Source of the DNA: Prolixibacteraceae bacterium
GTDB lineage: Bacteria > Bacteroidota > Bacteroidia > Bacteroidales > Prolixibacteraceae
DNA length: 64,000 bases
Reading direction: 5' to 3'
Assembly (NCBI GenBank): GCA_025355875.1
Contig: JANXYV010000045.1
Location: 1 to 64,000 of the forward strand
The notes under the pieces were generated by a model. The model did not search any database. It was not told the DNA's origin and saw only the letters and a list, made by a program, of their open reading frames with translations. The position numbers and the translations under genes are program-made. This document shows positions 20,035-61,100 of the stretch, one piece after another (the first letter of the stretch is position 1; each line of letters begins with the position of its first letter).

Positions 20035-22839
20035 TCAATGAAACAACAATGAATAAATAATCAGAAGAACAAGGATGATTCCGGTAAAGAGGAAAACATA
20101 ACCAAAAAACTTCACCGTCTTCATACGCCGGTCGGTAAACCGGGTCTCCGAAACGACTTCCTGCAATCTTCCTGATTTCTCGAGTTGTTCAAATTCTCGT
20201 GGACGGTCTTCCTTGTATTCGTCAATCTGAACTTTTCCCGTGAAAATGACGGTATCCATCGGAAAGGCTTCAGGACGAAGATGAGTATTGAAGAAATGGA
20301 TCGTAAAAATAAATCCTACCGCCAGCAGCGCCTCGTCGCTATGGATGATTTGAGCCACATTGATCAGCCAGCCAGGGCAAATCCTGGTAAAGAATACAGG
20401 GAACCACAAAACCAGACCGGTTGATCCAATAACCACAACCCCCCAGAATACCGCCATATAGTCAAATTTTTCCCAATAGGTCCATTTCCCATACGATGGC
20501 CGTGAACCTCTTCCAACAAACCATTTCACCGAAGCCCAGAAATCTTTGATATCCTGAACATTAAACATGAGCGAATTCTTTCCGAAGATAAAATCCATCA
20601 TGCTCAGTCTTTTTTCTGCTTTCAGTTTAAACAAAGAATAAACATGGTAGGAAAAATAACCGAAAGTAATCACAGCAGCAAAACGGTGGATGACTCCGGC
20701 ATGATATGCTCCGCCAATTAATTTTACAAAAAACTTGGCCCATTCCATATAGGCAAACTTCAGCAACATGCCCGTAAAAGCGAGAGATAAAAAGCTGATG
20801 ATGACAAAAATATGGGTGATGCTCTGGCTCCTTGTAAAACGTCGCACATATACTTTTTCGCCGACGTCTTTCGCATGCGCTTTCTTTTTCCGCATGGCAT
20901 CAATCGAACGGGGCAGCCACAGAAGGGTATGAAGTCCAAAGAACAAAAACACACTCACCAATAGGCTTGTCATGGCCCAGAAAGTATAATACAGCCAGGG
21001 GAATTTACTCTTGTTCGAATGGGTGGCATGAGTAAGATATCCGGTGAATTTCTTATTGGCATCGGCATGGCATTTCTGACAGGTGGCCACAATATTCTGA
21101 GGAGCAATAGATGATTTTGGATTGTGCCTGTTCAGGATATTGTGCGCCCCGTGGCAATCGGAACAGCGCGCTGCCTGCAAATAACCAAGCTGATAAACTT
21201 TGCCGTGATAGGTTTCAAGATAGGTTTCGGCCAGTTTGGAATGACATTTACCGCACTGCACGGTAATTTCGGCCATGAATTTATCCTTGTGAACTTCCGA
21301 CATGTTGTGCGCAGTGTGGCAGGTTTCGCAGGTAGGATATTTCACATCGCCCTTATCGGCAATATATGAATGGTCGCTGGAAATGTATTCGTTATAAATT
21401 CCTTTGTGGCAGTTTCCGCAGGTTGACGGAATATTTTTTGGATTCACCGATGACCGCGGATCGGAGGCCTTCAGTTGTGAATGCGCCGTGTGACAGTCGG
21501 TACAAACTGCCGCCGATAATAATCCTTTCTCAGCAAGGCTTCTTCCATGCACGCTTTGCGAATAATCATTGAATGCATCAATTTCGTGCAGGTTCGTCCC
21601 TTCCACCGCTTTTCCGCCTTTTCGGTGACATTCGCCGCAAAGTTTTGGAATCGATGACCGATATGTTCGTGAACTTTCATCCGATTTCGGTTTCACCAGA
21701 TGGCTTCCATGGCAATCGGTACAATACGGAGCATTTTCCTTTTTGTCGAAATATGCCTGACCGTGACCACTAGCAAAATAGATATCCGATTCAGCAGCAT
21801 GGCAGGCAGAACAGTCAACCTTCCCGGCTGTTTCGCATGGACGTGAAAGATGGATCGTTACATCGGAATGACATTTCACGCAGGTGATGTTTTTATGGGT
21901 GGACGCAGCCAGATCGCCAACTTCAACTTTCAGGGAAACTATCTTATTGTTGACGGTTTTGTGAGTTTCAGAATTGGCATGGCATTTCAGACAGGTATTA
22001 TCAGAAATGGTAGAAATGAGGTTCTTCAACTCAACTTTATGGGGTGGATGGCACGAAGTACAGGCCGGGATTGCACCTGGTTTCTTCTCCCACAATTCTT
22101 TATTGATCACTTTGGTGTGCACATCTTCAATCCTTGCGTGGCATTGCATACAGGTAGCTGCAATGTTCTGAGGCGCTATGCTGGAAGACACATTGGTATG
22201 AGGCAAAATCAGATGGTTGCCATGACAATTGTTACAGGTGGCCGAAACAATCAAACCTTTTTTGTACAGGCCTTGTCCGTGAATGCCTTCACTGTAATTT
22301 TCAAGGATATTGTGCTCCGAAATATTGTATGCCCGAGCAACCGGCGCGCCTTCCTTATGGCACGAACCGCATAAGACAGGAATATTCATCTTATAGGTCC
22401 GCGATTTCGGATCGGCTGATTTCAGGATTTCGTGAGTCCCATGACATTCTTTGCACGTTGGGGCAAACTTCTCGTTGGCCAGAAATGCACGTCCGTGAAC
22501 ACCACGAAGGTATTTGTCCTTGGCATCAGCATGGCACGAGCCACAATCAACCGGTGCGAGAGTCTCCGGATGCGGAAAGTCGGCCACAGCAGCTTCTTTA
22601 TGGCAGGAGGCGCAAGTCACACTTTTGTGGACCGAATGTTCCAAAGCGTTTGCAGGCACATACCTGGAAACTTTTTTCCCCGGTTTGGAAGAAGTCAAGG
22701 ATGGATCGTTGTGACAGGTCAGACAATCATCGTTGGTTTGTGCCGATGAAGTAAAAATTCCAGCGAATATCAACACAATAAACATCGCGGTTAAACGAAA
22801 TACCCTATGCATTTTATAAGACTTAAAATATCCTGTCAT
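20035..22839 (-). CDS. 19-haem cytochrome c fused to a membrane cytochrome b561-like domain
   Basis: 934 residues. After a signal peptide (about 1-34) come nineteen CxxCH motifs, from CLTCH at about 39 to CQKCH at about 586, arranged in repeating units of the type CxxCHGxHxI ... SSIAPQNI. From about 605 the chain has several membrane helices with histidines typical of di-haem cytochrome b561 (IIHSDEALLAVGFIFTIHFFNTH near the end, AGVIHRFAAVITFGYFSYHVYSLF before it). The architecture implies quinol oxidation or reduction in the membrane coupled to a periplasmic haem wire. No catalytic reductase domain is visible. It is the last gene of the operon with 22896-23519 and 23521-24459. Confidence 0.9.
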   Translation of the reverse strand: MTGYFKSYKMHRVFRLTAMFIVLIFAGIFTSSAQTNDDCLTCHNDPSLTSSKPGKKVSRYVPANALEHSVHKSVTCASCHKEAAVADFPHPETLAPVDCGSCHADAKDKYLRGVHGRAFLANEKFAPTCKECHGTHEILKSADPKSRTYKMNIPVLCGSCHKEGAPVARAYNISEHNILENYSEGIHGQGLYKKGLIVSATCNNCHGNHLILPHTNVSSSIAPQNIAATCMQCHARIEDVHTKVINKELWEKKPGAIPACTSCHPPHKVELKNLISTISDNTCLKCHANSETHKTVNNKIVSLKVEVGDLAASTHKNITCVKCHSDVTIHLSRPCETAGKVDCSACHAAESDIYFASGHGQAYFDKKENAPYCTDCHGSHLVKPKSDESSRTYRSSIPKLCGECHRKGGKAVEGTNLHEIDAFNDYSQSVHGRSLAEKGLLSAAVCTDCHTAHSQLKASDPRSSVNPKNIPSTCGNCHKGIYNEYISSDHSYIADKGDVKYPTCETCHTAHNMSEVHKDKFMAEITVQCGKCHSKLAETYLETYHGKVYQLGYLQAARCSDCHGAHNILNRHNPKSSIAPQNIVATCQKCHADANKKFTGYLTHATHSNKSKFPWLYYTFWAMTSLLVSVFLFFGLHTLLWLPRSIDAMRKKKAHAKDVGEKVYVRRFTRSQSITHIFVIISFLSLAFTGMLLKFAYMEWAKFFVKLIGGAYHAGVIHRFAAVITFGYFSYHVYSLFKLKAEKRLSMMDFIFGKNSLMFNVQDIKDFWASVKWFVGRGSRPSYGKWTYWEKFDYMAVFWGVVVIGSTGLVLWFPVFFTRICPGWLINVAQIIHSDEALLAVGFIFTIHFFNTHLRPEAFPMDTVIFTGKVQIDEYKEDRPREFEQLEKSGRLQEVVSETRFTDRRMKTVKFFGYVFLFTGIILVLLIIYSLLFH

Positions 22840-22895
22840 AATCTCCCCTGTTTGTAAAAGTCCAATGAAACTATTTTGGGTTCATTCCGGAATTC

Positions 22896-23519
22896 TTAAT
22901 GAACCTGATGCCATCCGGTGATGATGCTTTTGAAATTCTCAAGCGGCGATTTACCGATTGAGGCAATATAAAGGTGAATAATCAAAAATACGGAAATAAA
23001 AAAACCCATGGTTGCATGAAGTATCGCGGTTACAAAGACTCCACTGACAGTATATACCTTATCAATGATTACTTCAGGAAATAAAAGCGCAATACCTGTG
23101 ATGATTACGATCGGAACAGCCATATACATGACCATGATGTAGGAATATTTCTGAAGCGGATTAAACTTTCTCTTTTCAGAAAGCGGAAACGGCGCCTTCA
23201 TTCCGTGAAACATGCCCCAGGCATAGTAATAGGCCTGTTGCATCGGCTTATTCAAAAAACCTTTCGGCTTTACGATATAAAATTGACCATTCCGGGTAAA
23301 CAAATTTCCGGCGAAATAGACCAGGTAACTGAGCATCACCAAAATACCAGCCAGGTTATGAAGTTTTACAATCGTGTTAAAAGCAAGAATTTGAGATGAT
23401 TCAATGCTCGATTGCATCGAGATGCCGGTGAAGATTAAGGTTAGAATCCCGATTGCATTTAATCCGTGCCAGATTCTTAGCCAGACCGGATAAAAATAAA
23501 GTTTTTGGGCCGAGTCCAT
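22896..23519 (-). CDS. Cytochrome b561-like membrane subunit
   Basis: 207 residues with four to five transmembrane helices and histidines in helices as expected for haem b ligation: RIWHGLNAIG near the start, IVKLHNLAGILVM, and ILHATMGFFISVFLIIHLYIAS. It resembles the b-type subunit of formate dehydrogenase or Ni/Fe hydrogenase and probably exchanges electrons between menaquinone and periplasmic cytochromes. The start at 23519 (MDSAQKLYFYP) follows the preceding stop by one base, so translation is probably coupled to the 7-haem cytochrome. Confidence 0.88.
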   Translation of the reverse strand: MDSAQKLYFYPVWLRIWHGLNAIGILTLIFTGISMQSSIESSQILAFNTIVKLHNLAGILVMLSYLVYFAGNLFTRNGQFYIVKPKGFLNKPMQQAYYYAWGMFHGMKAPFPLSEKRKFNPLQKYSYIMVMYMAVPIVIITGIALLFPEVIIDKVYTVSGVFVTAILHATMGFFISVFLIIHLYIASIGKSPLENFKSIITGWHQVH

Positions 23520-23520
23520 T

Positions 23521-24459
23521 TTATTTCTTTTTAATAATTCTGAATAAACTGTGTATGATAATTCCGGCCAGTACAAGAAGGAAGATCACAATACTTGCCA
23601 ATTTTAAAATGGGGCTCTGATGTGTCCCTATAACATAGGATTCGTTGGCCAGTACCATCTTTATTCCACCCTCGGCAGCCCGTTTTTGCAGATTCTCATA
23701 TTTATACAAGGATGCTTTTAACCGCGAATCGGCGCTGTGACATTCAAGACATTTCCTGAGTGCTTTTGTCTTGGGAAGGATATTGTGCGAAACCTTTAAA
23801 CTGTCGAGCACTTCGGTATGACATTCGATGCACCGTACATTCGTAAAATGCAATTCCTGATTGGGCAACCACGAGTGGATCTGAACCAGTTTTGGATTTT
23901 CGTGTCCCGAAACCAACTGATATTTTTTCATATCGTTGTGACACGAAAGGCACATTTTATTGCTGTAATCAACAATTTCCAGTACATTATCGCTTTTTCG
24001 GGCAGTAGCCACATAGGTATGCTGACTGTGGCATTTCGAACAGGAAAAGTTATCGCCGTATACCTTATAATGAACGCTCTTTTTAAACTCCTCTTCAATT
24101 CGTTCAAAATAATAGGTTGCAAATGATGCGTCTCCACCATGGCAATCGAGACAGGTGCTCATAGGTTCCAGTTTCAAGTTGCCATTGTGCGGATAGGTTC
24201 CATATTCTGAAGAATGACAATCGGTACAGTCGAATTGCTGGTGAACCCCATGTGACATAGCCACCGTGTCAAGAATAAAATAGGGATTCATCAACCTTTT
24301 ATCCTCCTTTCCCTTCACGGTATTCAGGAACGAATAGGTTTGCTGTGAATGACACTTTAAACATTTGTGATGTTTGGCATTCTGATAGGATTGGGCATCG
24401 CTAAGGCCGGGATTGAATAAAAGAAGAACAAACAGAAATACAATGAAACGAAAATTCAT
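23521..24459 (-). CDS. Seven-haem cytochrome c with C-terminal membrane anchor
   Basis: 312 residues: signal peptide (about 1-22, ending LSDAQS), seven CxxCH motifs (CLKCH at 33, CTDCH, CLDCH, CSKCH, CLSCH, CIECH, CLECH), and a C-terminal helix (about 285-305, ILKLASIVIFLLVLAGIIIHSLF) with a KKK stop-transfer end. It should sit on the periplasmic face of the inner membrane and pair with the b561 subunit encoded one base downstream. First gene of a three-gene operon carrying 26 CxxCH motifs in total. Confidence 0.9.
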   Translation of the reverse strand: MNFRFIVFLFVLLLFNPGLSDAQSYQNAKHHKCLKCHSQQTYSFLNTVKGKEDKRLMNPYFILDTVAMSHGVHQQFDCTDCHSSEYGTYPHNGNLKLEPMSTCLDCHGGDASFATYYFERIEEEFKKSVHYKVYGDNFSCSKCHSQHTYVATARKSDNVLEIVDYSNKMCLSCHNDMKKYQLVSGHENPKLVQIHSWLPNQELHFTNVRCIECHTEVLDSLKVSHNILPKTKALRKCLECHSADSRLKASLYKYENLQKRAAEGGIKMVLANESYVIGTHQSPILKLASIVIFLLVLAGIIIHSLFRIIKKK

Positions 24460-24541
24460 TTTTAAGACTTTAAATTGATCTTAGCTGAAAAACTGATTTG
24501 GACCTGAACACTTTGATTAGATTGATTTCAATAAAAAAGTA

Positions 24542-24584
24542 AAAAATGGTAATTTCCTGATGAACCAGAAGAATTACCATTTTT
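24542..24584 (-). terminator. Terminator between the DUF5777 gene and the cytochrome operon
   Basis: AAAAATGGTAATT pairs with AATTACCATTTTT, with A/T runs on both sides. It ends leftward transcripts coming from 25529. Confidence 0.75.
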
Positions 24585-24614
24585 ACCTATTTATTAAATT
24601 CAAACCTTTAAAAA

Positions 24615-25529
24615 TCAAAATCCCCAAAGTCTGGTAATCACAAAACCAAATGACAACCCACTTGAATTAATCTCATTTTGGTTCCACATGATGTTATCCT
24701 GTGGCAACAACGATTGGGTTGAAGCGATGAACATCTGGAAAGCATGCGTACCGGTAGAAACTTCGTATCCAAAAGCGATACTTGGCTTTGGAGGATTGAC
24801 AAATTCGGTGTGTTCCGAAATTCCGGAAATCTTCAAAGGCATATCATAGTTAAAAATGATGGATCCCATCGGAGTGACTTTGATGCGGCCATTCACATGA
24901 ACACCCAGTTTGTCATGGTCGTATTCAGGTTTCACAGCATTATAATGTGTGAAACTTAAAGCAGCCTGAAGTGAGAATTCCTTGCAGAATTTGCGGCTGA
25001 CAATCAGTTCGGAGAAGTAGCTTAAACGGTCGCCGAATGCATATGGGCGTATCGCGCCAACATATGATCCTGCCTGAATGGTATCCAAACCGCCAATATC
25101 ACTTCCGTCAATACCAATATTACCATAAAAAGTCAGCGAAACAGGCATGGTATTTTTCCGGGTTTGCTCCAAAATGTTGTATTTGAGATTAACGTCAGTC
25201 ATCATATACCTTTTTGTGATTCCGGCTCCAATCTGAAGATTTTTAACAGGAACATAGTTTAACGCCAGCCTGATGTTTGCTGATCCGTAAAGACCATACA
25301 AATCTTTCATCTTATTATCCATGGTTCCGAATTTATGCTGAATGCCAAATTCGAGGGTCTTCACCGCAGGAATAACGGTTGTTTGCGCGTCAATCAGGTA
25401 GCCACTTTCGAAAACACCATTTACAGGATAATCTTTTGCTTTCACTGCGACAGAGTCAGTTTTACTCTGAGCAAAAGAATAGCTTGTTATGAGGGCAAAA
25501 AGAATTATAGATAGAATATTTTTTTTCAT
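24615..25529 (-). CDS. DUF5777-family outer-membrane beta-barrel protein
   Basis: 304 residues with a signal peptide (about 1-20, ending SFAQS) and regularly alternating hydrophobic residues typical of beta strands (ANIRLALNYVPVKNLQIGAGITKRYM, VSLTFYGNIGI), ending in an aromatic residue (RLWGF) as outer-membrane barrels do. The pattern fits DUF5777, a Bacteroidota barrel family seen beside multihaem cytochromes. Here it lies between a mono-haem lipoprotein gene and the cytochrome operon, so a conduit for electrons or substrate across the outer membrane is possible but unproven. Confidence 0.8.
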   Translation of the reverse strand: MKKNILSIILFALITSYSFAQSKTDSVAVKAKDYPVNGVFESGYLIDAQTTVIPAVKTLEFGIQHKFGTMDNKMKDLYGLYGSANIRLALNYVPVKNLQIGAGITKRYMMTDVNLKYNILEQTRKNTMPVSLTFYGNIGIDGSDIGGLDTIQAGSYVGAIRPYAFGDRLSYFSELIVSRKFCKEFSLQAALSFTHYNAVKPEYDHDKLGVHVNGRIKVTPMGSIIFNYDMPLKISGISEHTEFVNPPKPSIAFGYEVSTGTHAFQMFIASTQSLLPQDNIMWNQNEINSSGLSFGFVITRLWGF

Positions 25530-25553
25530 TTTAGCGAGTATTAAATGTTTGCT

Positions 25554-25943
25554 CTAATTATTTTTTGCACCTTCCTTGATCCACTGCAGTATCATCGCAT
25601 ATTCGGAGGAGGTATAACCTTTCCAGGAATGTTTGCTCGATCCGGGGAAAGTTAAAATTGTGCTGGTCTCCGGAGTAGGCAAATTAACAAGACTTGGGAC
25701 TATCTGTGTATACGCGTTGGTCGGCGTCAAATCAGGCATTTGTCCGCCTGGTTTATGGCACTGGGTACATTTGTCGGCAGTAGAAAAAATTGGTGCGACC
25801 TGTGTTGCGAAGCTGACCGGATTACCGCCATTATCAACAGGAGGAACATAATCAGGCAAAATAAAATCGTAGGTGCAGCCACTCATGAACAGCGCAAACA
25901 CTAAAAAGCAAAAAAACATTGAACGTTTCTTCATAATGCTCAT
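25554..25943 (-). CDS. Mono-haem cytochrome c lipoprotein
   Basis: 129 residues. A lipoprotein signal ends in LFMSGC (Cys22 or so), followed by a single CxxCH (CTQCHKPGGQMPDLTP) and a short c-type fold with GAKNN at the end. The segment YTSSEYAMILQWIKEGA matches the C-terminal helix of small mono-haem cytochromes. The gene may start at the ATG at 25934 rather than 25943. It precedes the DUF5777 barrel gene by 24 bp, so they are probably co-transcribed. Confidence 0.82.
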   Translation of the reverse strand: MSIMKKRSMFFCFLVFALFMSGCTYDFILPDYVPPVDNGGNPVSFATQVAPIFSTADKCTQCHKPGGQMPDLTPTNAYTQIVPSLVNLPTPETSTILTFPGSSKHSWKGYTSSEYAMILQWIKEGAKNN

Positions 25944-25961
25944 TATTAAGGGTTATACTAA

Positions 25962-25990
25962 AAAAGGCTTCCAAATATAGGAAGCCTTTT
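25962..25990 (-). terminator. Terminator after the collagen-like multihaem gene
   Basis: AAAAGGCTTCC and GGAAGCCTTTT form an 11-bp stem around AAATATA. On the minus strand it ends in a T run. Confidence 0.85.
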
Positions 25991-26009
25991 CTATATTTTA
26001 TCGATTTAT

Positions 26010-27371
26010 TTATTTCAGGATTGCAATTGTATTCTTCAGCAATGCCCGGGTGTATTTATAATTGTGAATTCCCAAACTGTAATCTCTCAAACACAACTGG
26101 AAGTTCAAGCAAGCGCCATATTGTGCATTGGTCAAACTCAGTTTTGGAAAAGTCAGGTTCAGCGCTTTCTGGTCAGCAGTCCATGATCCAGATGGAGCTG
26201 GATTCTGGAAAGTACCTGAAGGATTTTCAGCTGCAAAACCTGGATTATTAACTGGATCGTAAACATTCAGATAACCGTCGTAATTGTTCTTGGTAATACC
26301 AACCCATAAATTGGTTGAAGTCGAATTCCTGTTCATGATTTCAACACCGCCAACAGATAATTTAGCAGCAAGATCCATCAGCAATTGTTGAATGTCTGTA
26401 CGTGGGTTAACCCAGAAATTTGGATTTTTTGCATCAATTGGACTTGCGTGACATCCGGCTGCATTACAGGTAGTAAAGTTGCCAACTGCATTAAAGGAGT
26501 GTCCGCCAGCTCTTCCAACCATCGGACTTTTACCGCCATCGGCGCCCATGTGACAAGCCTGACAAGAGGCTACTGAAGTATGTGCTGAATTTGTGTAAGC
26601 TTCAGACCCGGCAAATTCAACACCACCCATACCAGCGTATACAGCACCTATAGCGCCATAATGAACGTGCATACGGTAACTTGGGCGAACAATATTGGTT
26701 TTTGCCTTATCATTATCTGAATCATATGCCAAAACAGTTGGATTAGCAGCAACTCCCACATAGTCCTGAACATTACCAGTCTGAAGGTTAGTCTGTGGGC
26801 GTGGCTGGTGACATTTAACGCAAAGGTTGCTGATTCCGCCATCGGCTTTCAAATCGATCGTTTTTGCACCGGCCCACATGGTCATTGGAACAGGAGCAAC
26901 AGTAGTTAATTTTGGAAGATCGGTTGAGGTATAAGTTGTATGGATTGAACTGTGACAAGTTGAACATCCGATTCTACCCACTGAAGCCGAAGCATCGGTA
27001 GCATAGTCGTTTTTGAAAAATCCCGGTTTAGTAGGATCCGGACTAAAGGTCACCGGAGTATTATGCGCAACCACATATTTAAATGCTTCCTGAGCATGGC
27101 AAGGAGAACATCCGGTATTACCCGATTCAGAGAAGGCAGCTTCGCCATACTCATGTTTCGAAAACTGGAACTGGGTTGCAATCAAATCAACCGAAGTAGG
27201 GTTGTGACACATTTTACAGGTTTCATTGGCATCAACACCATTTGTACCATTTGCACCGGCAGCTCCGGTGGCACCATCTTTACCGGCAGGTCCTTCTTTC
27301 ACACAGGAAGGTGCGATACACATGACAACACATGCAATAAGCAATAGGCGGGAATAACTTTTAAGTTTCAT
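26010..27371 (-). CDS. Multihaem cytochrome c lipoprotein with collagen-like linker
   Basis: 453 residues. A lipobox (CIAPSC, Cys23) is followed by seven Gly-X-Y triplets (27-47, GPAGKDGATG...) and then haem sites: five CxxCH (CKMCH at 52, CSPCH, CSTCH, CVKCH, CQACH) and one CX4CH (CNAAGCH). RPSYRMHVHYGAIGAVYAGMGG and further histidines could supply distal ligands. A collagen-like stalk directly after the lipid anchor suggests surface display or a spacer to the outer membrane. It has its own terminator and a perfect TTGACA-tt-TGTCAA box 160 bp upstream. Confidence 0.88.
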   Translation of the reverse strand: MKLKSYSRLLLIACVVMCIAPSCVKEGPAGKDGATGAAGANGTNGVDANETCKMCHNPTSVDLIATQFQFSKHEYGEAAFSESGNTGCSPCHAQEAFKYVVAHNTPVTFSPDPTKPGFFKNDYATDASASVGRIGCSTCHSSIHTTYTSTDLPKLTTVAPVPMTMWAGAKTIDLKADGGISNLCVKCHQPRPQTNLQTGNVQDYVGVAANPTVLAYDSDNDKAKTNIVRPSYRMHVHYGAIGAVYAGMGGVEFAGSEAYTNSAHTSVASCQACHMGADGGKSPMVGRAGGHSFNAVGNFTTCNAAGCHASPIDAKNPNFWVNPRTDIQQLLMDLAAKLSVGGVEIMNRNSTSTNLWVGITKNNYDGYLNVYDPVNNPGFAAENPSGTFQNPAPSGSWTADQKALNLTFPKLSLTNAQYGACLNFQLCLRDYSLGIHNYKYTRALLKNTIAILK

Positions 27372-28712: not shown

Positions 28713-29087
28713 CTACCCGCAGTTTACTTGTGGAATTCTATTTTCACCTTTCAGTGCTGCTATTGTTTCTTCTTTCGATGCTACCAAGGCCCTGTTTAGC
28801 CTGTTAATTTCTGCTTGCATGGCTGCACAGTTGGCGCATGGTCCGTTTGCTGCGTTCAGTATTTCTTCTGCAACTAAGATTTTTGCCTGCTTTTCTTCCC
28901 GATCAAAGTAATAGGCTATTGGTTTTTCAAAAAAGTCTGCAATCTTCTCTACATCATCCGGAGTAAGATTTTCCTTTTCAAGCCGATCTATCAGCGTGCT
29001 ATTGGCTATACCCATAAATTTGGATAGAGTCGTCTTTGCAGTTCTCTGAAAACTTATACTCGAATGTATCTTATTGTAATTCAGCAT
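28713..29087 (-). CDS. HTH repressor-like protein
   Basis: 124 residues. The N-terminal half (about 12-60) looks like a Cro/CI-type helix-turn-helix (KTTLSKFMGIANSTLIDRLEKENLTPDDVEKIADFF, then PIAYYF). The C-terminal half is a predicted coiled coil with a CANC pair (about 83-86) that could bind metal or form disulphides. It is leftward while all following prophage genes are rightward, the usual position of a lysogeny repressor. Direct repeats in the divergent promoter region could be operators. Confidence 0.7.
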   Translation of the reverse strand: MLNYNKIHSSISFQRTAKTTLSKFMGIANSTLIDRLEKENLTPDDVEKIADFFEKPIAYYFDREEKQAKILVAEEILNAANGPCANCAAMQAEINRLNRALVASKEETIAALKGENRIPQVNCG

Positions 29088-30219: not shown

Positions 30220-30293
30220 CGCGAGGTAGAGCAGTCCGGTAGCTCGTAGGGCTCATAACCCTGAAGTCGCAGGTTCAAATCCTGCCCTCGCAA
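30220..30293 (+). tRNA. Initiator tRNA-fMet (anticodon CAT)
   Basis: The sequence folds into a cloverleaf whose acceptor is CGCGAGG/CCTCGCA. The C1-A72 mismatch is the hallmark of bacterial initiator tRNA. The anticodon stem carries GGG...CCC flanking CTCATAA, and the T arm is GCAGGTTCAAATCCTGC. The discriminator is A and CCA is not encoded. No TATATTTG promoter of the host tRNA type is seen directly upstream. It lies between early genes of the prophage. Confidence 0.93.
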
Positions 30294-30392
30294 CAACGGT
30301 GGAAGAAGCAAATCGGGGTAGAATCCTTATCGGTGCCCCGATTATCACCAATTTTTTTAACAAACAGCGTCCCCACGCCAAAACCAAAAACT

Positions 30393-32211: not shown

Positions 32212-32688
32212 ATGGAATTAAAACTTAAAAAAACAACAGCAAAAAAATTGTATCCTGAAGCTCCAGCGTGGTTTCAGAAAGTATTAACCGAAACTTTTGG
32301 TGACGAAATTTTTAAAAAGCGTGAGTTCACCAACATCAAAACATTCGCGGATGCCTGCGAGGAATGTGAAACTTCTGAAGAAAAGTTCAATGAACTGTTC
32401 GGACACATCGGATTAAGCGATGATACCATTGCTTACGAGAAAATGAAGATTGTTGTGAAAGCTATTAACCAGGGATGGATTCCTGATTGGAACAACTCTA
32501 ATCAATACAAATACTGGCCATACTTCAAGCTGTCTTCCGGTTTCGGTTTTTCGTTCTCGTATTACTACTTCGCTTACGCGGTTACGGCTGTCGGCTCTCG
32601 CCTTTGCTTTGAAACAGAGGAGAAATGCAAATATGCAGCAACGCAATTTATTGATATCTACGAACAATTCTTAACCATTAAAAAATAA
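32212..32688 (+). CDS. DGR target protein 1
   Basis: 158 residues, no signal peptide or membrane segment. The N-terminal 100 residues are mixed helix (WFQKVLTETFGD, then TFADACEECETS). Then comes WIPDWNNSNQYKYWPYFK and the variable segment encoded by VR1 (about 107-133, from SSGFGFS to GSRLCF), followed by a constant C-terminal helix (CKYAATQFIDIYEQFL). A variable segment inside the chain, 25 residues from the end, differs from targets in which the repeat ends the gene. It is a paralogue of the next gene (shared WxPDWNxS, KYxP, SSGFGFS, VGSRLC). The biological ligand is unknown. Confidence 0.85.
   Translation: MELKLKKTTAKKLYPEAPAWFQKVLTETFGDEIFKKREFTNIKTFADACEECETSEEKFNELFGHIGLSDDTIAYEKMKIVVKAINQGWIPDWNNSNQYKYWPYFKLSSGFGFSFSYYYFAYAVTAVGSRLCFETEEKCKYAATQFIDIYEQFLTIKK
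32530..32610 (+). repeat. DGR variable repeat VR1
   Basis: Aligns without gaps to 33138-33218. Of 24 adenines in the template, 19 are replaced here; all 57 other positions are identical. This adenine-only pattern is direct evidence of mutagenic retrohoming. Confidence 0.96.
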
Positions 32689-32693
32689 AAACC

Positions 32694-33104
32694 ATGGCTA
32701 AAAAATCGCAAAAAACAGTTGAAGACAAATTCGATTTCAGAACAATTAAATCGTTTGAAGATGCCTGCGCTAAGGAAAATATTGATCCAACCGCTCTTCC
32801 TGATGTATCGATGATCCCGGAGGATCTTCGCAAACCAATCGTTTCAGCCTATAAGCTGATGATCATCTTCAGAGCAATTAATAACGGATGGCGTCCGGAC
32901 TGGAACAAATCATCGCAAGGCAAATACTATCCTTGGTACGGGGTTCTGTCTTCCGGTTTCGGTTTTTCGGGCTCGCGTTACATCTACGATTACACGCTTA
33001 CGTGTGTCGGCTCTCGCCTTTGCACTGATACCTCAGAAAAGGCCCTGTATATAGCCGATCAGTTCAAGACTGAATACCAGGAATACTTCCTGTACAGCGA
33101 ATAA
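32694..33104 (+). CDS. DGR target protein 2
   Basis: 136 residues, paralogous to the preceding gene and separated from it by 5 bp. Basic start (MAKKSQKTVEDKFDFRTIKSFEDACAKEN), then WRPDWNKSSQGKYYPWYGV, the variable segment from VR2 (about 84-111, SSGFGFSGSRYIYDYTLTC...), and a constant end (ALYIADQFKTEYQEYFL). No signal peptide. Residues facing the variable segment include aromatic and serine/glycine positions, consistent with a binding surface. Template DNA lies 31 bp after the stop. Confidence 0.85.
   Translation: MAKKSQKTVEDKFDFRTIKSFEDACAKENIDPTALPDVSMIPEDLRKPIVSAYKLMIIFRAINNGWRPDWNKSSQGKYYPWYGVLSSGFGFSGSRYIYDYTLTCVGSRLCTDTSEKALYIADQFKTEYQEYFLYSE
32943..33026 (+). repeat. DGR variable repeat VR2
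   Basis: Aligns without gaps to 33135-33218 (offset 192). Sixteen of 24 template adenines are changed and no other base differs. Confidence 0.96.
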
Positions 33105-33134
33105 AATAAAAGGTTGTGCGCCGCGATGCTGTTA

Positions 33135-33218
33135 GTTCTGTCTTCCAGTTTCAGTTTTTCGAACTCGAATTACAACTACGATAACACGAATACGAATGTC
33201 AGCTCTCACCTATGCAAT
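33135..33218 (+). repeat. DGR template repeat (TR), non-coding
   Basis: The 84-bp donor for both variable repeats. It is rich in AAC/AAT/TAC codons in the target frame (S, N, Y, D, T positions), the expected design in which adenines mark codons to be randomised. No coding frame crosses it. It lies 31 bp after target gene 2 and 116 bp before the reverse transcriptase. The TR region plus the hairpin at 33273-33297 probably forms the template RNA. Confidence 0.95.
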
Positions 33219-33272
33219 TCTGCGATGCAAACCTTGCCAACAGTGCAAAAAATAAAGTGATTTTAATGGGCG

Positions 33273-33297
33273 CTGGTAGTTAAGCGAAAGCGACCAG
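33273..33297 (+). other. Nested hairpin with GAAA tetraloop between TR and reverse transcriptase
   Basis: CTGGT (33273-33277) pairs with ACCAG (33293-33297). Inside it GC-GAAA-GC forms a GNRA-type tetraloop stem. This could be a structural part of the DGR template RNA that primes or positions the reverse transcriptase. Confidence 0.45.
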
Positions 33298-33310
33298 TAA
33301 AAAGCAAAGG

Positions 33311-33328
33311 CCTTTCGACGGGCTCAGG
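33311..33328. repeat. REP-like palindrome before the DGR reverse transcriptase
   Basis: CCTTTCGACGGGCTCAGG, a member of the CTTCGAC...GCTCAG family, ends 6 bp before the ATG at 33335. Confidence 0.7.
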
Positions 33329-33334
33329 AACCAC

Positions 33335-34291
33335 ATGAAAAGAATCGGAAATCTATATAAACAAATTTATAGCATGGAAAACCTCCAGTTGGCCGATGCG
33401 ATTGCCCGGAAGGGTAAATTGAAACAGCCTGGAGTAATCGAGCATGACCGGAACCGGGAAGGTAACATTCAAAAACTGCATGAAATGCTGAAGGATAAAA
33501 CCTATCAAACGTCAGAATATACCACGTTTACCATTTTTGAACCCAAAGAGCGCCTGATCTTCCGGTTGCCATATTTCCCTGACCGGATCACCCATCACGC
33601 GGTGATGAACGTTTTGGAGCCAATTTTTGTGTCCGTATTTACGGCTGATACTTACAGTTGCATTAAGGGCAAAGGCATCCATGCTGCGGCCAATGCAGTG
33701 AAACGTGCGCTAAAAGATGTTCCCGGAACACAATACTGCCTGAAGCTCGATATCCGTAAGTTTTACCCGAATGTGGATCATGAGACCCTGAAGCAACTGC
33801 TCCGGAGAAAATTCAAGGACAATGACCTATTGTGGCTGCTCGATGAGATAATTGACAGCACGGAAGGACTACCGATCGGCAACTACTTAAGCCAGTATTT
33901 CGCCAACTTTTACCTGAGCTATTTTGATCATTGGATAAAAGAGGACCTCCGGGTAAAGTACTATTTCCGCTATGCTGATGATCTGGTAATTCTTTCCGAC
34001 AGTAAACCTAAACCTTATTTACATCAGTTGCTTGCCGAAATCAGAACGTACCTGAACTCCAGGCTGAAACTAACCGTCAAAGGAAACTACCAGGTGTTCC
34101 CAGTTGATTCGAGAGGCATCGACTTTGTTGGATATGTATTCCGGCACACGCATGTCCTTCTCCGGAAGAGCATCAAACAGAACTTTGCACGTATGCTGAA
34201 AACCCGGCGAAATGGCCAATCAATTGCATCATACAACGGATGGGCAGCGCACTGCAACAGCAAAAACCTGATGAAAAAATTACTTGCATGA
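33335..34291 (+). CDS. DGR reverse transcriptase
   Basis: 318 residues. It copies the template RNA with adenine infidelity, and the cDNA replaces the variable repeats. Seen in sequence: the DGR-type start (MKRIGNLYKQIYSMENLQLADAIARKGK), palm motif LDIRKFYPN (catalytic Asp near 139), motif 4 IGNYLSQ (181-187), which matches the DGR-specific [I/V/L]GxxxSQ, and catalytic YADD (213-216). The thumb region ends at NSKNLMKKLLA. Size is usual for the family. No avd-like accessory gene lies between TR and this gene. The next gene overlaps its stop in ATGA. Confidence 0.96.
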   Translation: MKRIGNLYKQIYSMENLQLADAIARKGKLKQPGVIEHDRNREGNIQKLHEMLKDKTYQTSEYTTFTIFEPKERLIFRLPYFPDRITHHAVMNVLEPIFVSVFTADTYSCIKGKGIHAAANAVKRALKDVPGTQYCLKLDIRKFYPNVDHETLKQLLRRKFKDNDLLWLLDEIIDSTEGLPIGNYLSQYFANFYLSYFDHWIKEDLRVKYYFRYADDLVILSDSKPKPYLHQLLAEIRTYLNSRLKLTVKGNYQVFPVDSRGIDFVGYVFRHTHVLLRKSIKQNFARMLKTRRNGQSIASYNGWAAHCNSKNLMKKLLA

Positions 34292-34599
34292 ACACCTTTA
34301 GTCAGTTCAACATCAAAATCGAGAGCCAGGCTTTTGAAGGCGATAAAATCAAGATGTCGCGAATTCTGAACCGTGAAATTGTGGTCCATCATTTCAAACT
34401 GGAAGACTCAAAAGTGAAATCATTTCAGGAGAAAGGAACCGGAAAATGTTTGCACCTGCAGATATCGTTTGACAGTCGAAAACATGTTGTTTTTACCAGT
34501 TCGACGGGATTGATTGAGGTGATCCAGAAGATTCCGGAGAATGGATTTCCGTTCTCAACTACTATAGTTGAAGAGAACGACCGATACTTATTTACCTAA
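34288..34599 (+). CDS. Unknown protein translationally coupled to the DGR reverse transcriptase
   Basis: 103 residues from the ATG at 34288, which overlaps the reverse transcriptase stop (ATGA). Sequence: FNIKIESQAFEGDKIKMSRILNREIVVHHFKLEDSKV, then KCLHLQISFDSRKHVVFTSSTGLIEVIQKIP. The mostly beta pattern could be an OB-like fold, but no family is recognised. Coupling makes it a candidate accessory factor of the DGR, or simply the next early gene. Confidence 0.65.
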   Translation: MNTFSQFNIKIESQAFEGDKIKMSRILNREIVVHHFKLEDSKVKSFQEKGTGKCLHLQISFDSRKHVVFTSSTGLIEVIQKIPENGFPFSTTIVEENDRYLFT

Positions 34600-40994: not shown

Positions 40995-41061
40995 GATCAA
41001 AGTCCTTTATTTAGCCTCACTTCTATTGTAAAGTTGTAATGTGAATTTAAGCATTGCAACT

Positions 41062-42126
41062 ATGCCCAAAAAGTATTATTCAGTCCAAAACAAAACTTCA
41101 GATTCGGTTGATATTCTGATTTACGGCGTTATCGGCGAAAGCTGGTACCAGGAATCAGTTACAGCAAGGCAATTTATTGCCGATCTGAAATCGTTGGAGA
41201 AAGATTATAAGCGGATCAACGTCCGGATCAATTCTCCGGGCGGATCTGTTTGGGACGGATTTGCCATTTTCAATGCTCTCCGCAATTCTACGACCGAAAT
41301 TCACCTTTACAATGATGGCCTATGCGCTTCAATGGCTTTCGTAATTCTTGAAAGTATTCCTAAAAAAAATATCCATTGGGCTGACAATGCTCTTGGAATG
41401 GTTCATAGTGCCAGTACCGGAGCCTGGGGAAATGTACAGGACATTGAGCAGGTTTTAGAAATGCTTAAGAAGGTTGATGAAAGCTTAATTACTTGTCTGG
41501 AAACTAATGGATCAAAAACAAAAGATGAAATAAGAACTACTTATTTCGATTATAAAGACCATTTTTTAAATGCCGAAGAAGCTTTATCTGAAGGCTTTAC
41601 AGGTGTGATTGAAAAGGGAAGCCTTAAGGTTTCGGACAAAATTACCTCGTTAACTCACGACCAGGTAATTGATCAATTTAACAAGATGGTTAAGAACAGA
41701 ACCATATTAGACAAATGGTTCTCAAATGCGTACGATTTATTCTCACCAAATTCAGAAATAGATATGGACATTAAAGTACTCGCGAAAGCCTGCGGGTTGT
41801 CTGATAAGGCAACTGAACAGGAAGTTCTCGACTGGATCGAAGAACATGGTAAGCCGGTTGATGAAGCCGGGGAAACCGAAGAAACTGAAGAAGTGGAAGA
41901 AACCGAAGAGGAAGAAACCACCGAAGAAACTGAAGAGCTTGATCCAAAAGATCAGGAGATTGCAGACCTTAAAGCACAGTTGGCCGCTAAAAACAAAGCC
42001 CCTGGAGCTAAAGATAAAAAGGTAGTTAAACCTACCGATTCGAAATCTACTGCTGTAAAAGATTCTTTCAAAACCTACTCGGATGCGAAAGCCACATTTG
42101 ATGCAGTGAATGACCTCTTTAAATAA
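41062..42126 (+). CDS. ClpP-like prohead protease with acidic C-terminal region
   Basis: 354 residues. The N-terminal 210 form a ClpP/S14 fold: RINSPGGSVWDGFAIFNALR, catalytic Ser90 in LCASMAFVI and His115 in GMVHSAS. Phages use such enzymes to process the scaffold and capsid during head maturation. From about 270 the chain is extremely acidic (runs of E and T) and then lysine-rich, which suggests a fused or self-encoded scaffold. The ATG at 41062 is chosen over a GTG at 41041. The major capsid gene starts 18 bp downstream. Confidence 0.85.
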   Translation: MPKKYYSVQNKTSDSVDILIYGVIGESWYQESVTARQFIADLKSLEKDYKRINVRINSPGGSVWDGFAIFNALRNSTTEIHLYNDGLCASMAFVILESIPKKNIHWADNALGMVHSASTGAWGNVQDIEQVLEMLKKVDESLITCLETNGSKTKDEIRTTYFDYKDHFLNAEEALSEGFTGVIEKGSLKVSDKITSLTHDQVIDQFNKMVKNRTILDKWFSNAYDLFSPNSEIDMDIKVLAKACGLSDKATEQEVLDWIEEHGKPVDEAGETEETEEVEETEEEETTEETEELDPKDQEIADLKAQLAAKNKAPGAKDKKVVKPTDSKSTAVKDSFKTYSDAKATFDAVNDLFK

Positions 42127-45427: not shown

Positions 45428-46022
45428 TATGCCACGCCCATCGACTTTAGACAATTGCAGTAAGTATCTGTACACTGATATCGATCAGGTACCGGTAACC
45501 TACCAGGAGCGAATAAAGCGCATCAGGGTAGGTTATACGCATTGGTATGAATTCCCTACTAAAACCATCCCAGATATTCGGGACCATCTAATGAATGAAT
45601 TCGATATTGCAAGGACGACTGCATATGAAGATATCGAGATTATTAAAATACTATTAGGCAATATCAAAAACCCCGAAAAGGAATGGATCAGATACCAGGT
45701 TAATGCCATGTGTGATGCCGCCTTTAAAATGGCCAAAAAGCAAAAAGATCCCAAAGCCATGGTTATGGCAGCCGATAAAAAAGGTAAATATAATTTGGTT
45801 GATAAACCGAGTGTTGATCCACTTCCATTTGATGAAATAGCAACGCAGCAATTTGAGCCTACCGATGATCCTACGGTACTTGGACTAAAGAAAGATCCGG
45901 AGATAAGGGAAAAGAAGCGCAAAATGCTTGAAAAGTATATGAACGATATTGAGATAATTGATGTGCCTTACGAAGAAATGATAAAAGATGCCAGCGATAC
46001 CGAAGAAACAGATATACTTTAA
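45420..46022 (+). CDS. Terminase small subunit-like protein (inferred)
   Basis: 200 residues with a central HTH-like segment (TKTIPDIRDHLMNEFDIARTTAYEDIEIIKILLG) and a charged C-terminal helix (REKKRKMLEKYMNDIEIIDV). Its place directly before the large terminase, with a 35-bp overlap, and its DNA-binding-like middle support a role in recognising phage DNA for packaging. Family membership is not certain. Confidence 0.65.
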   Translation: MNNMPRPSTLDNCSKYLYTDIDQVPVTYQERIKRIRVGYTHWYEFPTKTIPDIRDHLMNEFDIARTTAYEDIEIIKILLGNIKNPEKEWIRYQVNAMCDAAFKMAKKQKDPKAMVMAADKKGKYNLVDKPSVDPLPFDEIATQQFEPTDDPTVLGLKKDPEIREKKRKMLEKYMNDIEIIDVPYEEMIKDASDTEETDIL

Positions 46023-47616
46023 TGATCCACAACTGGAGTTCATGTATACCGGAGCGCACACTTCAGTGATAGCCGGTGGCCGTCGTTTAGGTAAATCACA
46101 TGGATTCGCTGCACCGTTCATTTTAAGAAACGTTCAGTCCATGCCGCGTTCAACGGGTGCAATTGTCGGTAGTACTTATCTGCAGATCCTGTCCAGAACA
46201 TTGCCGGGTACTCTTCAGGCGCTGGAGATGTTCGGTTACAAACGTGACGTTCATTACTATATTGGTCATAAGCCTGATCCAAAAGTTAATTTTCAAAAGC
46301 CAATCATAGATCCTGCAAGCTATGAACATGCAATGATTTGGTATAATGGCACAATAGTCCGGTTTATAACCCAGGATCGACCTGGATCTTCCAACTCATT
46401 AACCCTCGATTGGCTTTCACTCGATGAAGCTAAATTCCTGAAATTTCAGAAGCTGAAGGAAGAAACATTCCCGGCCAATGGAGGGTTCAAAGGTCATTTT
46501 GGGAATTGTCCGCATCATCATGGTATGCTGATCATTTCCGATATGCCAACGACTAAAGCCGGGAGCTGGTTTCTGACCTATAAGGATAAGCAGGATACTG
46601 AACTGATAGAAACCATTCATAGCCTGATTTACGAGCGCTGGGAGGTTCAGCAACGCATGAAACTGGATCCAAAACCGTATCACGCAACCTATCTGCGTGA
46701 ACTCGATATTGCCCTGGCTAAACTTCGAAGTGTAGCTGTTTATTACCGTGAATGGTCCAGTATTGAAAATTTGTTGCTCCTGGGTGAGCGATACATCAAA
46801 CAAATGAAGCGGGATCTTCCGCCACTCGTATTCCAAACCTCGATACTTTGCAAGAAGATCAACAATCAGAAGGATAACTTCTATGCAGCAATGTCTGAAG
46901 CTGTTCACTACTACGATTGCTTTGATAACAGTTATCTGGATAGTCTTGATTATAAATATACTGACAAGAATGACAATTGCCTTCAGGATGGCGACCTAGA
47001 TAGAGATAAACCCATTTGCATAGCATTTGATTACAATGCAAACATCAATTGGCTCGTATGTGGGCAACGTCAGGGAGTAAAGATGAAGACACTGAAGTCA
47101 TTCTATGTGAAGTATGAACGAAAGGTTCGGGAGCTGGTTCAGGACTTCTGCAATTACTATCGATATCACAATAAACGTGAGGTCATCTACTACTATGATA
47201 ACACCGCACTTGGCACTAACTATGCCGTTGGCGACGATGACTTTGCATCTGTTATTTGCTCAGAGTTTGAGCGGCTTGGATGGTCTGTTAACCGGGTACA
47301 CCTTGGTAACCCTATGCCACACAAGGATAAACACATGATGATCTTTCAGGCAATGAAGGGACAGCGTTGGCTGTTCCCATTGTTTAATAAGCCAAACAAT
47401 GAAGCTCTTCTCTTGGCGATGGAATCAACAGGCATCCGCATTGGTGCTGATGGATTCAAGAAAGATAAGTCAGGAGAGAAGCTATCCGAATCTGAAGAAG
47501 ATTTGCTTCAGCATCGCACCGATGGAACTGATGCCTGGGATACCCTGTTCATAGGCATGAATAAGTTTGCTGTCAACGATGAGTATGATGATTCAATCAT
47601 CAGCATCTTCGGGTAA
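45988..47616 (+). CDS. Terminase large subunit
   Basis: 542 residues. This is the ATPase and nuclease motor that fills the capsid. Walker A is in VIAGGRRLGKSHG (30-37), and Walker B with catalytic Glu is in LTLDWLSLDEAKF (near 145). The C-terminal nuclease part has acid residues in CIAFDYNANINWLV (near 347), REVIYYYDNTA and HRTDGTDAWDTLF. All key positions of TerL are present and the length is normal. It overlaps the small-subunit-like gene. Confidence 0.9.
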   Translation: MPAIPKKQIYFNDPQLEFMYTGAHTSVIAGGRRLGKSHGFAAPFILRNVQSMPRSTGAIVGSTYLQILSRTLPGTLQALEMFGYKRDVHYYIGHKPDPKVNFQKPIIDPASYEHAMIWYNGTIVRFITQDRPGSSNSLTLDWLSLDEAKFLKFQKLKEETFPANGGFKGHFGNCPHHHGMLIISDMPTTKAGSWFLTYKDKQDTELIETIHSLIYERWEVQQRMKLDPKPYHATYLRELDIALAKLRSVAVYYREWSSIENLLLLGERYIKQMKRDLPPLVFQTSILCKKINNQKDNFYAAMSEAVHYYDCFDNSYLDSLDYKYTDKNDNCLQDGDLDRDKPICIAFDYNANINWLVCGQRQGVKMKTLKSFYVKYERKVRELVQDFCNYYRYHNKREVIYYYDNTALGTNYAVGDDDFASVICSEFERLGWSVNRVHLGNPMPHKDKHMMIFQAMKGQRWLFPLFNKPNNEALLLAMESTGIRIGADGFKKDKSGEKLSESEEDLLQHRTDGTDAWDTLFIGMNKFAVNDEYDDSIISIFG

Positions 47617-58141: not shown

Positions 58142-61100
58142 ATGGCAACCCTTAACGAAGAAGCCCGGATTCCGGTCTATATTAACGACGAACAGGCAAA
58201 ATCAGCCCTTAAAAATCTTCAAAATGAGGCTGATAAATGGAAAAAAAAGATGTACGAAGCCATGGAAGGTGGCGATATGAAAGGCATGAAAGATGCTGAA
58301 CGTGAACTGAAGAATGTGAATAAACAGGCAGCAGAGCTTAAACGCGAAGCTTTTGATGTCAATAAGGTCTTGAGCAACATTTCTGATGTTTCAATGAAAG
58401 ACCTGAAAAAAGCATTGCAGGCGGTTAACCGCGAAATTGACGGACTGAACCGAAATTCAAAGGAATATGCCGCGCTTCAGGAAAAGGCAAAATTGCTTCG
58501 TACCGAAATGTACAATGTAAACGGCGCTTTGCGCGAACAACGCGGGTTCTTCAGTAAAGCCGCCGATTTTGCAAACCGGTACTGGAGCATCATTGGCGCC
58601 GGGGCCGCTTCACTTACCGGCGTTGTATTGGGTTTGAAACAAGTAGTTCAAGCTCACAACGATTTCGAAGAGCGGGTAAGCAACCTTTCTGCCTTAACAG
58701 GTCTAACCGGTGAAAAACTCGATTGGTTGAGCCAAAAGGCAAAATATTTATCGACATCGGTTATCGAGGGTGGCATACGGATTAAATCTGCCGCACAGGA
58801 TATTGTCGATGCTTATACTAAAATGGGTTCGGCACGCCCCGAGCTGCTTAAGAACAAAGAAGACCTTGCAGCGGTTACCCAGGAAGCCCTTATACTCGCC
58901 GCCGCCTCTAAAATGGACGCTGTTCCGGCCATCGATGCCGTGGCCGCCTCAATGAATCAATTTAACCTGGGCGCTGATCAGGCCCGTCGCATCATCAATG
59001 TGCTGGGAGCCGGAGCGCTCGAAGGAAGCGCTGAAATTGCCGATATTACTGAATCGTTGAAAAACGTGGGTACGGTTGCTTCCGATTCGAACATGAGCCT
59101 CGAAGAAACCGTTGCCGCTATCGAAGTTTTGGGCGAAAAGCAACTCAAGCAGGCCGAAGCCGGTACAAAAATGCGCGGAGCTCTCCTCAAGATGAAAGAA
59201 GCGCAGATTGGCTACGCTTCCGGTACGTTTAATCTTCGCGATGCATTGGTTGAAGCTAATACGAAGTTGAACAGCATGTCGAACGATATGCAACGCGATG
59301 CATACAAGGCTAAAATATTCGGAATCGAAAACCAGACCGTTGGTACAATTCTGATTCAAAACATCGACAAATACGACAAACTTACAACCGCTGTAACCGG
59401 GACCAACGTAGCCATTCAACAGGCAACGGTTAACAGCGACAACAATAATGCAAAGCTGGCACAGGCACAAAACCGGATCAACGTTACCGCCATTGCACTG
59501 GGCGAAAAATTGGCGCCTGCCTTAATAGCCGTAACCGGATGGACAGGCAGATCACTGGCTGCACTGTCGTACCTGGTTGATGTGGTTACAAAATACAGCG
59601 GGGTAATTATTACAACTACTTCAGCTATTATTGGATATACTGTTGCAACGAAACTGGCAGCACTGTGGGAAATGCGTAATAATGAACAAAAAGGCATTGG
59701 ACTTGCGTTGACTAAACTCAAAGTATTCTGGCACGGTGTGGAACGAGGCGCATTATTGCTGTCGGCAGCAGCTCAGGCCTTGCTTACCGGCAATACAGTT
59801 AGAGCTACAGCGGCCATGCGTCTTTTCAATATCGAGACAAAGATGAATCCCCTGGGATTAATTATTGGATTAATTACCGCTGCTGTCGTTGCTCTCGCAA
59901 TGTATTCTCGTGGTCTTACAGCAGCTCAGCAAGCCCAAAAAGCCGTCAACGAAGTGAATATTGAGGCTCAAAAAGCTATGGTTGAAGAAAAAATAAAAGT
60001 CGAACAGTTGCTTAAAATTGCGAAAAATGAAAATTTATCCAAAGAAACCCGGTTAAAAGCAATCAAAGACTTGAACGAAATTTCACCGGAATACCTGGGC
60101 AATCTCACACTTGAAAAAATCAACACCGACGAGGCCAAAAAGGCGACTGATATCTACATCGAATCGATTAAAAAGAAAGCCAAAGCGCAGGCAGAGTTTC
60201 AAAAACTGGTCGAAATTGATAAAGAACTGATCGATTTAGAGAACGGCAAAGGTGCTGAACCTACATTTTGGCAAAATGCCTGGAATATGGCCACATCTGC
60301 CGGAAATGCCGCCGTATATGCCGGAAAGTCAACCATTACAGCCCTTAACAACATTGACGAAAAAACAAAAGCTCTGCTTTTGACTAAAAAGAAACTTACT
60401 GAACAGATGGATAATGAAAATACTACCACTAATCCGTCTGGTTCCGGTAAAAACCCGGAAGGGGAAATTACAGCCGCTCAGGACCTTGTTAAAGCGAAGG
60501 AACTGGAACTGGAGAATGCCAAAGCCATCATTGCCACTACACCCGCCGAAGTTGCCGCTCGAAACAAGAAGATCGAAGCGATTCAGAATGAAATAAATAA
60601 GCTCAATCAACTTGGAACATCGAAGGAAGGAAAGGGAGATGATCCTATAATTAAAAAGAAGATTGAAGACGCTGAAGCCGCCAACTATGCCGAAATGGCC
60701 GCGATTAAGAAACGCCATCTCGAAGGCAAAACAAACGAGGATGAGTACAACGGCGAAATGCTTGCTCAGGAATTGAAGTTTTTGACCGATAAACTTTCGA
60801 TCTACAAAAAAGGGTCGAAAGAATACGAGGAGACTTACATGCAGTCGCTCGAAGCTCAGTTGAAAGCTCAGGAAGATGCTGATAAAAAAACCGAAGAGGA
60901 AAAGAAGAAGTCGCTTAAAAAAGAATTGGATGATCTTGACAATCAGCAAAAATCCGAACTTGCTTTACTGAAAAAGGATGCACTTGCAAAAGGCTTTTCC
61001 GAAGAAGAAACCAATGCTTTGCTGATTAACAAAGAAATTGAGTTTCTCAACAAAAAATTAATTCTCGAGCAAAAATATGGTCAGGACACGGTTGAAACCA

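Follow-up and report, generated by a model that had tools for sequence, protein, structure and literature searches.

Several phage diversity-generating retroelements (DGRs) comparable to the one analysed here have been described. In crAssphage LMMB the reverse transcriptase (RT) belongs to lineage 3, usually associated with CLec3 targets, the order is target, template repeat (TR), RT, and the account gives no avd; the single target is a 486-residue tail-collar protein, its variable repeats (VRs) being given without SRLC residues (PMC7290462). The nd4/nd12 phage DGRs (tentaclins) serve two target genes from one TR, the targets showing two topologies that both contain C-type lectin domains (PMC10743442), and the Bacuni phage DGR of Bacteroides uniformis, also from a Bacteroidota phage and also with two targets, has Avd and DUF1566/fimbrial-tip targets with 3'-terminal VRs (PMC8143477). 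Two targets per cassette, as in about 13% of DGRs (PMC10743442), are no novelty in themselves. The BPP-1 DGR, with adenine-only transfer from TR to VR and a homing site that differs between the two, has Avd and one tail target, and four of its five homing-site mismatches lie off TR adenines. Here we analyse a DGR within a 64,000-nucleotide stretch (the window) of a Prolixibacteraceae bacterium (GenBank assembly GCA_025355875.1, contig JANXYV010000045.1, positions 1 to 64,000 of the forward strand). Taken jointly, it is probable that this is a functional, Avd-less DGR of an apparent Bacteroidota prophage, that its RT follows a rule set by adenine context, and that its targets are a pair of small early genes.

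The locus shares with crAssphage LMMB the target-TR-RT order and the absence of avd, its RT is 49% identical to that of LMMB, and its targets resemble lineage-3 VRs in having an SRLC-type homing region at the end of the repeat. In contrast to LMMB, it has two small sister targets, each with an internal VR. The features, all on the forward strand, are:

32212 to 32688, forward: target gene T1, 158 amino acids by translation of the open reading frame (ORF), a helical N-terminal extension plus a core as in T2
32530 to 32610, forward: VR1, inside T1 with 25 codons after it, all 19 of 19 differences on TR adenines
32694 to 33104, forward: target gene T2, 136 amino acids, a paralogue of T1, with 25 codons after VR2
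32946 to 33026, forward: VR2, inside T2, all 16 of 16 differences on TR adenines
33138 to 33218, forward: TR, between T2 and the RT gene, with 17 core adenines at 33162 to 33196
33147 to 33153, forward: the CAG adenines 33147 and 33153, G in VR1, VR2 and nearly all relatives
33201 to 33212, forward: TR 3' end, with the CAG adenine 33201 (G in the VRs) and the homing-site adenines 33208 (CAC to CGC) and 33212 (CTA to CTT, synonymous)
33335 to 34291, forward: DGR RT, 318 amino acids, with IGNYLSQ and YADD, matching PF00078 and phrog_1423

The TR aligns to VR1 and VR2 without gaps over 81 bases and contains 24 adenines. VR1 differs from it at 19 positions, every one an adenine (10 to T, 7 to G, 2 to C), and VR2 at 16, again all adenines (8 to G, 5 to T, 3 to C); the chance that all differences fall on A is 2.8e-14 and 2.2e-11, respectively. 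Both VRs lie in open target genes and the TR is intergenic. An earlier note, made from the letters of this stretch, had described a complete two-target tandem DGR with exactly these adenine-only differences and with both RT motifs next to the TR, and the repeat anatomy, the intact RT and the relatives described below bear it out. Its 84-base gapless alignment holds for VR2, whose match extends three bases upstream (32943 against TR 33135), but not for VR1, which shows 22 differences over 84 bases because 32527 to 32529 are mismatched; the 81-base span fits both. No further VR was found in the 5.18-Mb genome (230 contigs), where the adenine-masked TR, searched exactly at non-A bases, matches three places, all in this locus (a reversed control pattern gave none).

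The 24 adenines do not behave alike. At 33147, 33153, 33201, 33208 and 33212 the same non-A base stands in VR1 and VR2, and also in nearly all relatives; at the last three the counts of the identical base are 352/354, 323/327 and 228/228. Four of these five fixed changes are non-synonymous in the window (S to G three times, H to R). Adenines 33216 and 33217 sit past the homing site, where VR1 reads Phe and VR2 Thr, and in relatives 49 of the 63 upstream targets have F after RLC while 46 of the 62 last ones have T, so changes here look gene-specific. With the five fixed and the two apparently gene-specific adenines set aside, the diversified part comprises the 17 core adenines, changed at 12 in VR1 and at 10 in VR2. 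Five fixed differences in each VR are thus not random diversification, nor, it appears, are the gene-specific-looking ones (two in VR1, one in VR2).

Relatives were collected by their RT, the best 80 being kept of 403 matching stretches in viral contigs and the best 80 of 89 in genome contigs; with two more viral queries and nine named phage records this gave 291 loci, among them some retrieved by more than one query. One or more VRs together with a TR were found in 266. Of the other 25, the RT stands no more than 521 bases from the locus start in 19 and six lack that explanation; these six (L036, L152, L219, L220, L231, L194) have at least 900 bases upstream of the RT relative and no TR/VR pair found, and are possibly decayed, distant-template or missed cases. 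Two of the 267 finder hits were excluded, their TR or VR not being upstream of the RT. The finder penalises non-A mismatches, so that identity at non-A sites is partly by construction, while the outcome base at A is unbiased. Loci with a TR shorter than 96 bases and an RT more than 50% identical were assigned to class 1 (227 entries, 190 distinct, RT 55–100% identical) and the rest to class 2 (38 loci, RT 35–69%, mostly longer TRs). Class-1 entries have two VRs in 177 cases, three in 27 and one in 23; class-2 loci have a single VR in 36 of 38.

Across the 190 distinct class-1 loci the template adenines are bimodal. Core adenines are kept as A in 15–68% of VRs with no base exceeding 68%, and at ten columns near the repeat ends (33, 36, 42, 90 and 97–102) A is kept in 0–4% and one other base reaches at least 91%. 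We tabulated outcomes by neighbouring base in two sets, 184 class-1 loci with target-family ORFs (mini-target loci), with the homing site separated, and 43 other related loci including six class-1 entries with no target-family ORF; L154, class 2 by length but with target-family ORFs, was left out of both. Outside the homing site a CAG adenine becomes G in 897/921 cases in the 184 loci and in 79/85 in the 43. Adenines before G that are flanked on both sides by mutated adenines, and so lie inside the diversified tract, likewise read G in 45/51 and 60/69. A second contrast concerns C: the second adenine becomes C in 203/1079 AAT but 31/945 AAC triplets (P 2e-30), and in 163/842 against 26/738 when counted in frame, in the core only and with one locus per RT cluster (204 clusters of 228 by ungapped identity, possibly too many). 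Whichever base replaces the second A, AAT and AAC specify identical amino acids, so this contrast is independent of the protein. Class 2 shows the same direction (AAT 73/238, AAC 6/76).

The BPP-1 lineage behaves differently. With the BPP-1 RT as query we obtained 51 distinct loci. In these, with homing sites pooled with the rest, CAG becomes G in 6/13 and GAG in 9/23, the remainder keeping A, and of all adenines before G 23/38 keep A and 15/38 become G; the AAT/AAC contrast is absent (second A to C in 4/51 and 60/500). The full BPP-1 query (67 loci) with four loci of the second query gives AAT 10/70, AAC 66/520, CAG 6/13 and GAG 9/26. For the BPP-1 enzyme in E. coli, G misincorporation is reported as 26.8% at NAC, 0.08% at NAG and 2.5% at NAT, and slippage followed by a second copying of the preceding template base has been proposed (PMC12875486). 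If that base is a G, C would be set opposite A and the outcome would be G, in agreement with the rule at AG seen here; at AC the present lineage behaves oppositely to the BPP-1 enzyme. The surviving VRs, rather than cDNA, suggest that the context rule resides in the RT.

Variation in progress is visible between close relatives. Among pairs with RT DNA at least 93% identical (24 found, 12 comparable, loci shared and hence not independent), 185 of 190 VR differences fall on the 467 template adenines among the 1606 sites compared; this answers the earlier note's claim that the element is or was recently active, and its proposed check for adenine-only variation, in the affirmative as far as relatives go. 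Adenines before G differ in 0/47 comparisons and other adenines in 185/420 (P 1e-11, the pairs again not independent). Seven near-identical-RT pairs allowed two or more VRs to be compared. A single VR differed in five of them (L276/L277, L042/L043, L041/L043, L007/L008 and L037/L045, at 9–13 positions each) and two VRs in two (L073/L103 and L041/L042), indicating that VRs are rewritten independently, usually one target per event. L041, L042 and L043 have three VRs in three target genes, and these near-identical contigs differ in one or two of them.

A mechanism can be proposed in which TR RNA and its structured spacer would be copied by the RT with errors at adenines, and the cDNA would overwrite VR1 or VR2, usually singly, as far as a 3' homing site whose sequence is not the same in TR and VR. 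The next template base would set the error, an A before G becoming G (about 97% for CAG), an A before C giving almost no C and an A before A or T giving a mixture, and the randomised codons would fall in a predicted β-hairpin of two small early-region sister proteins. As A or G before G in the TR would give the same outcome, the rule explains three of the five fixed differences; the remaining two, at 33208 and 33212, belong to the homing site.

The alternative that survives best, though we think it unlikely, takes the fixed positions for discriminators lying beyond the transferred tract, namely the 3' homing site and a 5' counterpart that is never overwritten. At the 3' end it fits. The putative initiation of mutagenic homing (IMH) site reads CGCCTTTGC in the VR and the corresponding IMH* reads CACCTATGC in the TR, the two differing in a manner fixed in relatives, and BPP-1 offers a precedent in a 21-bp element with five mismatches that sets the direction of homing (PMC3240598). 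Within the homing site CAC becomes G in 302/310 and TAT becomes T in 216/224, but in the repeat body these triplets are mixed (CAC 76/208 G, TAT 5/55 T). The homing-site effect is thus bound to position and the AG effect to context. At the 5' CAG the discriminator reading fares worse, as the VR follows the TR where column 33 holds a non-A base (0/207 mismatches, a figure partly owed to the finder's construction), and before-G adenines within the diversified tract show the same pattern. Discriminators were consequently dropped for the AG sites and kept for the 3' homing site.

Less probable still is that the A-to-G positions are fixed by selection on a fold that needs Gly, Gly, Gly and Arg. The four non-synonymous changes among five are what such selection would leave, and G106 and R108 of T2 are invariant across 60 target sequences, yet fourfold-degenerate sites behave alike: column 33, a TCA-type CAG, is G in 161/164, the homing-site CTA becomes CTT in 222/222 and class-2 GCA becomes GCG in 14/14. 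For the two key columns the frames were set by alignment; broader fourfold rows are rough owing to misassigned frames. Editing of A to I was dropped as an explanation, since in the homing site CTA turns into CTT, a change from A to T.

The two targets are paralogues (hhalign of their profiles: probability 100, E 2.3e-63, 125 columns), and their PHROG matches are all to families of unknown function, chiefly phrog_11581 (T1 E 2.2e-27, T2 E 6.5e-26). Neither has a Pfam family at E≤1 or an NCBIfam family at E≤0.1, and among solved structures the best match is E 0.13 by sequence and E 4.3 by fold, none reaching E≤0.001; against a viral structure library the T2 fold has eight matches at E≤0.001, all to uncharacterised proteins. 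No match to T2 was found by tblastn in 50,697 phage records at E 1e-3, nor to the third target of one relative in 72,556 plasmids. AlphaFold2 models (mean pLDDT 85.3 for T1, 82.0 for T2) predict helices around one VR-bearing β-hairpin, within which the randomised codons, six AAY and five of TAC, GAT and ACG type, are predicted to lie. No C-type lectin fold was seen in these models, in which VR confidence is low, and the VR is not C-terminal as in C-type-lectin targets, 25 codons following both VR1 and VR2.

The same target family recurs throughout class 1, in which, of 198 loci with more than 1500 bases before the RT, at least two family ORFs are present in 188, one in six and none in four (such ORF counts are stop-to-stop and not dereplicated), while 37 of 38 class-2 loci have none. 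In two-VR class-1 loci T1 has 134–166 amino acids in 52/53 and T2 119–158 in 53/57. In L064, L069, L021 and L033 the T2 frame is open far upstream, crossing VR1 in another frame, probably as a by-product of stop-poor VR sequence. Aligned to class-2 targets, T1 and T2 share only 25–26 residues, the VR cassette ending VGSRLC (probability 92–93), which suggests that one VR cassette is carried on two scaffolds, the T1/T2 type and the class-2 tail type.

The DGR lies between a gene with weak repressor similarity (28713–29087, opposite strand), some 3.1 kb past which the locus starts, and genes for a head protease (41041–42126), terminase (45988–47616) and tape-measure protein (58142–62077); this places it in the early/replication region of an apparent prophage and not among tail genes. 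In several class-1 relatives (20 neighbouring proteins examined from eight loci) the genes within a few kilobases are primase-like (L002), DnaB-like (L113), replication-initiation (L125), transposase and transposition ATPase-like (L104, L108), ParB-like and replisome-organiser-like (L074) or a DNA methyltransferase (L057), so that the cassette is found in early regions of different phage types.

This bears on an ordinary tropism-switching DGR with receptor-binding tail proteins as targets, an explanation we rank just below protein selection and hold to be improbable. In several DGR clades phages usually diversify tail proteins (PMC8144416), and related RTs in named phages adjoin tail or unnamed genes. 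T1 and T2 are, however, far smaller than class-2 targets, which in 35 of 36 cases (stop-to-stop, the exception a 90-residue ORF) have 258–514 amino acids, with 1–8 residues after the VR, and they stand between repressor-like and head genes, with replication and transposition neighbours in relatives. T1 and T2 are small, early, paired and hypervariable, and no export or membrane segment is visible in them by eye, no predictor having been used; on these grounds they may bind some variable host ligand inside the cell, possibly a defence protein, a role to which we give slightly less than an even chance. A virion or surface role is possible. That the locus is a decayed relic with VRs no longer changing is highly improbable, for although the evidence of change comes from relatives and not from reads of this prophage population, the RT, T1 and T2 are open and full length and close pairs of relatives differ at template adenines.

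Several points nevertheless weigh against our interpretation of a context-reading RT with small early targets. TAG (38/55 G) and GAG (19/30 G), counted before the homing site, are less strict than CAG; most CAG adenines lie in the repeat flanks, where a need for homology could also fix them, and the inner before-G cases are fewer (120) and laxer (105 G, 88%). All VRs are survivors of selection on protein and homing, the loci and the close pairs are related and not independent, and only 38 adenines in the BPP-1-lineage control precede G. In the T1 and T2 models the VR is predicted with low confidence (block means 61–77), and L108 has a head-morphogenesis-like gene some 4.3 kb downstream, on the opposite strand.

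Two further features flank or follow the RT gene (profile matches PF00078, E 1.2e-18, and phrog_1423, E 5e-129):

33219 to 33334, forward: spacer between TR and RT, 116 bases, with conserved, covarying helices and a weak Rfam RT-17 match at 33230 to 33308
34288 to 34599, forward: small gene, 103 amino acids, overlapping the RT stop, matching phrog_19665, a possible DGR accessory

The consensus fold of the spacer from a 30-sequence alignment has two-sided changes in 5 of 14 pairs, and RT-17 matches over its full model length with 28.0 bits (E 0.032), short of the gathering score of 40.4; judged by this covariation the spacer is a conserved RNA. The small gene matches phrog_19665 at E 1.5e-10 (as the longer ORF 34240–34599), and among class-1 loci whose sequence extends far enough past the RT, 211 of 222 have a member of its family directly after that gene, as do 12 of the 38 class-2 loci (not dereplicated); from this position the gene may be a DGR accessory. 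The accessory protein Avd is not present in all DGRs, and no Avd-type family was found among the neighbouring ORFs (10 compared with Pfam, 6 with NCBIfam).

The closest RTs in named bacterial genomes are in Prolixibacteraceae metagenome-assembled genomes (90% and 88% identical), and an RT match at E≤0.001 occurs in 30 of 61 genomes of the host genus, family and order, mostly weak and not necessarily of DGR type. On contig C92 of a same-genus genome (G010), related RTs of 88% and 49% identity lie at 24425–25369 and 64042–64986, some 39 kb from each other; they may belong to a single phage with two DGRs or to separate prophages. Elsewhere in the window, a tRNA-Met gene (30220–30294) separates the DGR from the weakly repressor-like gene and may be carried by the phage or mark an integration site, and the host part contains multihaem cytochromes of MtrC/MtrF-like type (20035–27371) and a ResB/cytochrome c assembly fusion protein (14778–17588), which suggest extracellular or periplasmic electron transfer.

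The fuller explanation, that an RT lineage with a built-in next-base decoding rule is combined with a movable VR cassette on a small, doubled early scaffold, most likely an intracellular binder, seems to us evenly balanced. As far as seen, two things are new, an error code specific to this lineage and a pair of small early targets with internal VRs; no report of the AG rule or of small early tandem targets was found in the literature searched, and the target family may already be among the 24 clusters of Roux 2021. If the explanation is right, the template holds random, decoded and homing-site adenines, so that fixed and varied sites of the protein are written side by side. The only systematic map of DGR errors by context that we found is that of BPP-1 (PMC12875486), and a second lineage, opposite at AC and near-deterministic at AG, would show the error spectrum evolving together with the template. 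The counting of DGR diversity would be corrected accordingly, a changed adenine not always being a diversified one, and an early, small, paired, non-tail target would widen the use of hypermutation by phages past receptor binding.

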